From contig JAAFJT010000003.1 in NCBI GenBank assembly GCA_013298955.1, positions 1 through 64,000 of the forward strand: a stretch of 64,000 nucleotides of DNA. The letters are read 5' to 3'. The DNA comes from Chitinophagales bacterium (GTDB lineage: Bacteria; Bacteroidota; Bacteroidia; Chitinophagales; Saprospiraceae). Positions 39,970 through 58,450 of this stretch are shown here, one piece after another. A model generated the notes under the pieces. That model ran no database searches. It saw only the letters and a program-made list of their open reading frames with translations, and was not told where the DNA came from. Position 1 is the first letter of the stretch. Every line of letters starts with the position of its first letter. The position numbers were made by a program, and so were the translations under genes.

Positions 39970-40029
39970 GAAGCGTTGGCTGTGACTTGTTTGTGGATGG
40001 AATCGTATGCAAGTTGCGGACAAAAAAAA

Positions 40030-40115
40030 ATGCGCCCGACACGCCGCTCGACTATCTTACCCTTGCTGTGTTTCCACCCTGGGGGAGTTCAGAAGGAGCT
40101 GGCTGCCTGACGCGG
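40030..40115 (-). ncRNA. ffs: Small signal recognition particle RNA (4.5S type)
   Basis: The minus strand gives an approximately 86-nt RNA whose apex reads CCCCCAGGGTGGAAACACAG followed by CAAGGGTAAG. This is the SRP domain IV hairpin with its CAGG / AGCA internal loop and GAAA tetraloop, the binding site of the Ffh M domain. The two flanks (CGCGTCAGG... and ...GCGGCGTGTCGGGCGC) form a lower stem. It ends in a run of T on this strand (40022-40030) and has a perfect promoter upstream. Ends are estimated within a few bases. Confidence 0.85.
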
Positions 40116-40117
40116 TG

Positions 40118-57813: not shown

Positions 57814-57854
57814 TCAAAAAAAATAAAAAAAAATACATTTTTTTTGAAAAAAAC

Positions 57855-57885
57855 TTGCACAGTTCAAAAACTCGTTGTATCTTTG
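57855..57885 (+). promoter_or_regulatory. Promoter of the initiator tRNA gene
   Basis: CTTG with TTG at 57855-57857, then 20 nt, then TATCTTTG at 57878-57885, close to the Bacteroidota consensus. The tRNA begins 19 nt downstream. Confidence 0.75.
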
Positions 57886-57903
57886 CACTGTCAAAAGAAA
57901 AAC

Positions 57904-58285
57904 CGCAAGGTGGAGCAGTTGGCAGCTCGTTGGGCTCAAAATTTTTGCTCAATTAATAGGACTGAAAAGTTAAGTTTTCAAATTCATTATTTGTAAACTT
58001 AAAAACAGAAATGTTTAAATATTAATTGAAAAGGGCTGTTCCGAAAGTAATTTCGGAATGAATTTCGTCAAATTCGGGGAAGCCTGTCATGTGGTAATCC
58101 CGAGCCAAGCTCTCCAAGAAATTGGAAAGAAGGTGTAGAGACTTTATGGCGAACACCCTACCTTCTGTCAAAAGAAGCGGGTGAAGAGAAAGTCCAGACT
58201 ACAAATTCCATTTCGGTGGAAGCGGTGAAAACCGTAGTGAGTAAGCATAACCCAAAGGTCACAGGTTCGAGTCCTGTCCTTGCTA
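57904..58285 (+). tRNA. Initiator tRNA-fMet(CAU) interrupted by a group I intron
   Basis: 5' exon 57904-57936: acceptor CGCAAGG, D arm GAGC/GCTC, anticodon 5' stem TTGGG, C32 and U33. 3' exon 58246-58285: anticodon CAT, AA, CCCAA stem, variable AGGTC, T arm ACAGG-TTCGAGT-CCTGT, acceptor CCTTGCT and A73; CTA, not CCA, follows. Spliced together they give a perfect cloverleaf. Initiator features are present: an unpaired 1-72 position (C1/U72) and three G-C pairs at 29-31/39-41 (GGG/CCC). The intervening 309 nt are the intron. Confidence 0.93.
57937..58245 (+). other. Group I self-splicing intron (IC3-like) in tRNA-fMet
   Basis: 309 nt inserted after U33, ending in G (58245), as group I rules require. 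Core elements are readable in order: P (TCAAATTCGGGGAAGCCT at about 58068), Q (AATCCCGAGCCAAGC at 58096-58110), R (AGGTGTAGAGACTT at 58131) and S (AGAGAAAGTCC at 58185). P7 forms between GACTTT (58140-58145) and AAAGTC (58189-58194). P9 hairpins TTCCA/TGGAA and CGGT/ACCG precede the 3' end. The Q, R and S wording closely resembles the small Azoarcus tRNA-Ile intron as I recall it. No open frame for a homing endonuclease is inside. Confidence 0.92.
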
Positions 58286-58292
58286 CTAAATT

Positions 58293-58337
58293 ATGTCGTA
58301 ACTAATTGATTATCAATGAGTTACGACATTTTTATTT
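58293..58337 (+). terminator. Terminator of the tRNA transcript
   Basis: ATGTCGTAAC / GTTACGACAT with a 17-nt loop containing TTGATTATCAA, followed by TTTTTATTTTA, 8 nt after the mature tRNA. Confidence 0.8.
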
Positions 58338-58450
58338 TATAAGGGAATGCTTTTTTTGAAAAGATTATTGCGCAATAAGCATATTTTTTAGTAAAATTTG
58401 GGTTCAATTCCTATTTTTCAAAAAAAAGCGATGTCAGACTTTGTTGTACT

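Follow-up and report, generated by a model that had tools for sequence, protein, structure and literature searches.

An Endonuclease-Free Group I Intron in the Only Detected Initiator tRNA Gene of a Saprospiraceae Genome

In a draft genome of the Saprospiraceae (Bacteroidota), the only initiator tRNA gene that was detected is very probably split by a group I intron, which would be removed by ribozyme splicing; the intron lacks an endonuclease and belongs to a known mobile tRNA-fMet intron family. The gene is located in the first 64,000 nucleotides of contig JAAFJT010000003.1 (assembly GCA_013298955.1), the stretch of DNA analysed here and termed the window. The structure of the intron, its junction and family, the lack of a detected intact copy, and its occurrence or lack at orthologous sites of related genera were computed. 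A preceding sequence-only reading of the window had proposed such a gene in a Bacteroidota host, and the host was borne out. Features are on the plus strand of the window unless stated otherwise.

Results

The gene occupies positions 57904–58285, and these coordinates were confirmed. When the 5' exon of tRNA-fMet(CAU) (57904–57936, tRNA positions 1–33) and the 3' exon (58246–58285, positions 34–73, CCA not encoded) were joined, a complete cloverleaf was obtained, identified by ARAGORN as tRNA-Met(cat); the initiator cloverleaf predicted to form once 309 nt after U33 are removed was thus reproduced. Initiator tRNAs are marked by an unpaired position 1:72, three G-C pairs in the anticodon stem and A11:U24, which are found in this sequence as C1·U72, GGG/CCC and A11:U24. 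The intron (309 nt, 57937–58245, as delimited by Rfam, ARAGORN and the junction in relatives) is inserted in the anticodon loop between U33 and C34. That exon 1 ends with U and the intron with G (the omega G, position 58245) was read in the sequence, as had been noted earlier. Since the intron and exon 2 both start with CA, cuts after U33, C34 or A35 would lead to an identical product; a cut after U33 with a final G is preferred because of the group I rule. From the suggested tRNAscan/ARAGORN-type check, the ARAGORN part was run: without introns, no tRNA was found in the whole window or in 57851–58340, whereas with introns allowed a tRNA with a 309-nt intron was detected at the locus, labelled Leu because the program placed the intron in another register.

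Group I introns of bacterial tRNAs are usually assigned to subgroup IC3. The group I covariance check of the locus yielded a match to the Rfam group I intron model RF00028 at 57969–58217 with 73.8 bits (E 7.3e-17), above the gathering score of 50. The 309-nt RNA folds better than 100 of 100 shuffled sequences (z -5.1). The first hairpin in the Rfam alignment (about 57973–57999) lies inside the P1 loop, whereas the P2 common to the relatives is at 58039–58058. For covariation analysis 61 of 111 introns among the matches listed were kept at an identity limit of 80%, including the aberrant locus L154 (see below). Over these introns 94.3% of the cells of 54 pairs (P2–P9) were paired, percentages of this type being flattering, because it was from the row of the window itself that the structure was derived, and because the sequences are relatives of one another. 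The 42 pairs with double changes are a stronger sign of structure: 617 double-change cells were observed vs. 182.5 in shuffles, with none of 500 shuffles as high. Sliding of the partner by 1–3 columns caused pairing to drop to 33–44%.

The group I core (P3–P8 and P4–P6, with pseudoknotted P3 and P7) is present. The P2 hairpin (58039–58058) has double changes in 7 of 7 pairs and 91.6% of cells paired; in P3 (58064–58069, partner 58148–58153) these values are 5 of 6 pairs and 99.7%. Paired cells amount to 100% in P4 (58074–58078/58099–58103), 97.2% in P5 (58082–58084/58093–58095), 98.3% in P6 (58104–58106/58132–58134) and 92.2% in P6a (58110–58115/58124–58129). The 5' strand of P7, the guanosine-binding helix, at 58140–58143 is paired with 58191–58194 in 61 of 61 introns (100%). 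P8 (58154–58158/58179–58183) is paired to 97.3%; its variable tip (58162–58166/58173–58177) is the weakest part, with 77.3% for four pairs and 60% for one pair. Two P9 hairpins (58206–58210/58217–58221 and 58222–58226/58231–58235) follow, with 86.9% and 96.7%, respectively. The P/Q/R/S order given in the sequence-only reading is consistent with covariation of the core helices; its 6-bp P7 was checked as a 4-bp core (GACU/AGUC).

In the minimum-energy fold of 57930–58037, the exon strand of P1 (G30 G31 C32 U33, 57933–57936) pairs with 58034–58037 by a U33·G58034 wobble at the 5' splice site, C32-G58035, G31-C58036 and G30·U58037. The internal guide GGGCU (58033–58037, with GGGC at 58033–58036) was placed by the fold and by relatives. 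Among the matches listed, U33 pairs with the same guide G in 83 of 87 folded introns, P1 folding having been confined to introns whose guide lies within the first 200 nt; constancy of the guide in relatives is partly due to selection, since GGGC was the search word used for placing it. The final G of the relatives was likewise part of the search pattern, hence it is no independent evidence there. A P1 drawn by eye between the exon and 57946–57952 was dropped, because it gives U33·U, whereas the guide at 58033 gives U33·G. Pairing of the guide with the 3' exon (P10) is weak in the window (1 bp); among the matches listed, it is 1 bp in 29 and 3 bp in 57 of 111 introns. The P1 loop (57937–58032) is a folded stretch of 96 nt (z -3.0, 1 of 200 shuffles as good), in a place where some relatives have an endonuclease gene.

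A promoter-like site of the Bacteroidota type (57854–57885; CTTG, 20 nt, TATCTTTG), according to what we take to be the consensus of this phylum, lies 18 nt upstream of the tRNA. The pattern is weak alone, with 2 matches in the window vs. 0.9 expected and 26 of 100 shuffles reaching 2, and it is the placement of the site which suggests a promoter. Downstream, at 58293–58329, an intrinsic terminator is formed by a stem of 11 bp enclosing one of 5 bp, followed by a T-rich tail (-17.6 kcal/mol, z -6.2, 0 of 200 shuffles as good; missing from a simple terminator scan). Promoter-like site and strong terminator hairpin together suggest a single-gene transcript. Five neighbouring open reading frames are ordinary in Pfam (UbiA, arginase family, RmlC-type epimerase, RmlD, ABC transporter). 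The window also contains a small SRP RNA on the minus strand (40026–40116, RF00169, 42.2 bits).

When named genomes were scanned for the junction, at least 114 stretches were obtained, which together with seven further loci made 121 loci. Among the matches listed, a 5' initiator exon ending with GGGCT was present 221–952 nt upstream of the 3' junction in 112 of the 121 loci. The 9 loci without it by the pattern used are three in which no more than about 110 bases of the locus precede the junction (L071, L081, L151), five lacking the 5' exon by pattern (L077, L093, L095, L106, L152), and an intronless Shewanella tRNA caught by the pattern (L158). The tree was computed from 110 rows, of which 108 were different; L044/L102 and L049/L171 are each one record encountered twice; L140, with the core anchor missed and another endonuclease, and L154, without P4–P6, were excluded, and L131 is a Deltaproteobacteria record with a wrong group label in the tree. 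These rows carried at least 18 NCBI phylum labels, and Cyanobacteriota were commonest among the matches listed (32 rows), with Bacteroidota (26, and 7 more from the family of the window), Nitrospirota (12), Rhodothermota (6) and Chloroflexota (5) also represented. Hosts of the fMet intron include Saprospiraceae-type, Cytophagales and Rhodothermales records besides other phyla. Single odd hosts may be mis-binned, since many records are metagenome bins; among the matches listed, Nostoc, Moorena, Spirosoma, Lewinella and Neolewinella are carriers with non-bin records. Cultured carriers include Lewinella sp. JB7 (L092, with an intron of 309 nt), Neolewinella lacunae (L137, 661 nt) and strains of Spirosoma or Fibrella.

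The tree has modest branch supports, and its bootstrap had not converged. By tree path, the rows nearest to the window among the matches listed were L037, then L103 and L072. A single origin in Bacteroidota was rejected, as judged from all 33 rows as one clade (AU test, p 0.015); the 19 Saprospiraceae-type rows as one clade were compatible with the data (AU test, p 0.178). In a sample of the phylum, the junction was found by the 3' junction pattern only, in 10 of 395 genomes, 8 of these in one other family. The sporadic presence fits the horizontal movement that had been suggested. The alternative suggestion of an undescribed lineage was not sustained, as named cyanobacteria have the same junction and the endonuclease of close relatives matches PDB 2ost. 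Guide and core could be aligned with cyanobacterial fMet introns (the Synechocystis intron itself being outside the alignment), and by its sequence the intron of the window goes with the tRNA-fMet introns that are known from cyanobacteria.

Some unusual loci were encountered. In six from Acidobacteria (L074, L093, L095, L106, L152, L164) the 3' end of the intron is divergent and nearly identical among the six; a 5' exon was found by pattern in 2 of the 6, and the introns may be longer or degenerate. L154, from a Nitrospirae bin, has an endonuclease ORF and lacks P4–P6, being either a broken intron or an assembly error.

The intron of the window contains no ORF of at least 80 amino acids on the plus strand, in agreement with the earlier reading of an intron without endonuclease. 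The intron of L037, from the other genome of the same genus, is 666 nt long and has an intact ORF in the P1 loop. Over a 252-nt stretch made up of core and 3' exon, the two loci are 81% identical, and similarity breaks at the P1 loop. The L037 protein matches PDB 2ost ("Putative endonuclease", E 6e-63), which we take to be I-Ssp6803I from the tRNA-fMet intron of Synechocystis, and PF11645 (2.6e-46). Among the matches listed, ORFs of at least 136 amino acids were present in 23 of 112 introns and absent from 89; an ORF is hence no defining feature of these introns. By eye, 22 of the 23 look like one family, starting 3–35 nt into the intron; only the proteins of L037 and of the exception, L140, were searched. 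L140, from a Desulfatirhabdium bin, is an fMet intron of 952 nt, inserted at the same site; its endonuclease is of another type, LAGLIDADG_2 (PF03161), and lies elsewhere in the intron; two endonuclease types thus occur in introns at the fMet site. Pieces of an ORF of the common family were seen by eye in L040, L067, L059, L084 and L165.

Among the matches listed, the highest core identities to the window (73–74%) were those of L066, L080 and L037, all with an intact ORF. ORF remnants in the P1 loop of the window were sought in two ways. Free local alignments with eight introns scored no better than those of shuffles; with the alignment anchored at the guide, an equally good result was reached by 11 of 500 shuffles for 16 relatives, and by 47 of 500 for five of Saprospiraceae type. 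Loss of the ORF in the line of the window is likely rather than certain, since its next neighbours by tree path after L037, L103 and L072, also have no intact ORF.

The flanks of the gene in the window and of that in L037 have no similarity beyond tRNA and intron, and thus lend no support to a single insertion inherited by both genomes of this genus. Empty orthologous sites were recognized by comparison of the genomes G015 and G267 vs. G218 (flanks 68–74% alike on both sides) and of G116 vs. G202 (flanks 91–92% alike); two genera of the family thus each include genomes with and without the intron at an orthologous locus. In two more genera, tRNA and upstream flank are common (G156 vs. G030, G102 vs. 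G191); two comparisons in genus g89 showed little in common beyond the tRNA. A phage or plasmid vector was considered and found no support: IMG/VR contained no junction stretches, and there was no plasmid match to the L037 endonuclease; its three phage matches were partial, with 28–34% identity.

The genome has a second split tRNA, a tRNA-Leu(UAA) with a 269-nt group I intron (locus L002, 1417–1770, minus strand; contig C166 of genome G000). The match, 42.4 bits, is below the gathering score; insertion was read as after U34, presumably the site of the tRNA-Leu introns of cyanobacteria and plastids. Group I introns in other tRNAs and in tmRNA were observed in the order and family of the window, with a match in 14 of 60 genomes, its own included; by eye, the host genes are Leu (L038, L042, L045, L047, L050), a CAU non-initiator (L039) and Arg-like (L046, L048), and in L034–L036 the intron is at the tmRNA 3' end. 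A tRNA-like gene of the same genome (L033, 1107–1231; G000 C139:35608–35727) has an anticodon arm enlarged by about 44 nt. It matched RF00005 with 45 bits and was not found by ARAGORN, and of its matches in relatives nearly all are confined to the T arm; it is either a tRNA carrying an unusual insertion or a pseudogene.

Discussion

We infer transcription, splicing chemistry, transfer and the direction of endonuclease change as follows. Probably the gene forms a transcription unit by itself, which starts at the promoter-like site and ends at the terminator. In the transcript, the intron would fold into the P3–P9 core and the end of the 5' exon would pair with the guide (P1, U33·G58034); guanosine is predicted to bind in P7, with cutting after U33. 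Joining of U33 to C34 would then release 309 nt and form the mature initiator tRNA. The P1 loop of mobile members of the family appears to encode a PD-(D/E)XK endonuclease; the element most likely entered this lineage through homing or horizontal transfer, its endonuclease gene being lost afterwards.

Could the split copy be a dead tRNA gene, initiation being served by an intact tRNA-fMet absent from the draft? The genome (4.68 Mb) is a draft of 204 contigs and 97.95% completeness, the expected tRNAs for Glu, Ile-GAU and Ala-UGC are likewise missing among those named, and 150 of 443 RF00005 candidates were scored, giving 31 matches. Against this stands that neither RF00005 nor a pattern for either form of the initiator 3' half detected an intact initiator tRNA in the 98%-complete draft; the pattern had a single match, the split gene, and the two other CAU tRNAs (L010, L022) are non-initiators by sequence. 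The second, uninterrupted copy considered in the sequence-only reading was accordingly not detected in the 204 contigs. The intact anticodon arm had no exact match in the genome and one with 1 mismatch; ARAGORN found no tRNA in the 8 of 39 anticodon-arm matches checked, this one included (the other 31 have 2 mismatches). In the family, either form was found in 217 of 298 sampled genomes, about 15 of which had more than one match, and the split form in 24 (Saprospiraceae-type); the intact form was found in none of the 24 carriers, where either-form and split-form counts were equal, although sequence variants were missed in these counts because exact patterns were used. Of the 25 split copies in the family, 23 have the 5' exon 277–672 nt upstream, and the other 2 have no more than 100 bases between junction and stretch end. 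Compensatory change, moreover, keeps the intron core. A dead gene is thus very unlikely, and from the split gene as the only detected source it can fairly be inferred that translation initiation depends on ribozyme splicing. In lineages with a sole, split initiator tRNA and without the endonuclease, the intron might even be kept as a splicing gate that couples initiator supply, and hence initiation, to the state of the cell, with guanosine driving the reaction and the P1-loop domain guiding the fold; we consider this idea very unlikely.

An artefact of the assembly, or a bulge-helix-bulge intron spliced by proteins, can practically be dismissed in view of the group I covariance match, the conserved core and the same junction in 112 loci among the matches listed, nearly all from separate records; bulge-helix-bulge splicing is not known from bacteria. 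The presence of the fMet and the tRNA-Leu(UAA) intron in one genome, with core motifs in common, could mean that the two are sisters. In a tree of 44 rows (with 32 fMet rows chosen from the 110), however, six Leu introns and one Arg-like intron cluster (99/94), while the intron of the window is placed, with modest support, among fMet introns from other hosts; its highest identity among the matches listed, 78%, is to the fMet intron L066. A sister relationship is therefore highly improbable, and a ribozyme-spliced member of the tRNA-fMet family remains the preferred reading.

An essential gene of translation would be under a probable selfish ribozyme in Bacteroidota. One family of tRNA-fMet introns extends over many phyla, with full, shortened and endonuclease-free forms and with empty sites inside genera; owing to these varied forms and the empty orthologous sites, the cycle of gain, decay and loss of mobile introns becomes testable in cultured bacteria. 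Default tRNA finding misses split genes, and genomes therefore seem to be without initiator tRNA.

Comparison with Known Introns

The intron is of a known kind in an essential gene; a record of a host in Bacteroidota was not found in print. Titles and abstract openings contained no report of tRNA group I introns in Bacteroidota or of a widespread fMet intron, subscription papers and preprints being outside the search. The accessible part of one paper describes around 35 bacterial chromosomal group I introns as then known, and for Synechocystis sp. PCC 6803 a tRNA-fMet intron of 655 nt with the 150-aa PD-(D/E)XK enzyme I-Ssp6803I (PMC1995217). According to the accessible part of another, group I introns explained the missing fMet or Ile2 tRNA of 36 genomes, with Gloeobacter, Synechocystis, Acidovorax and Burkholderia named, and intron-split genes are also missed by tRNAscan-SE in default mode (PMC8450103).

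The Synechocystis intron, by that description, is in the same host gene and anticodon loop as the intron of the window (PMC8450103), and named cyanobacteria among the matches listed have the insertion after U33 and the same guide. Saprospiraceae-type introns with ORF (L066, L080, L137, L037) are 651–666 nt long with ORFs of 136–150 aa, close to the values of 655 nt and 150 aa given for Synechocystis. The intron of the window differs from the latter, which is known here by description, in its length of 309 nt, the lack of an ORF, the folded P1-loop stretch and the Bacteroidota host. The tmRNA T-loop introns, for which the accessible text gives 21 phyla and one subsite in Saprospiraceae only (PMC11915505), belong to the same intron class and occur in the same bacterial family, but in another host gene and position and with a separate place in the tree. 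The tRNA-Leu(UAA) introns of cyanobacteria and plastids are likewise group I introns in a tRNA anticodon loop; the Leu intron differs from the fMet intron of the window by its site, by the guide (GAGU vs. GGGCU, by eye) and by its separate group in the tree, which was built from introns of the family.
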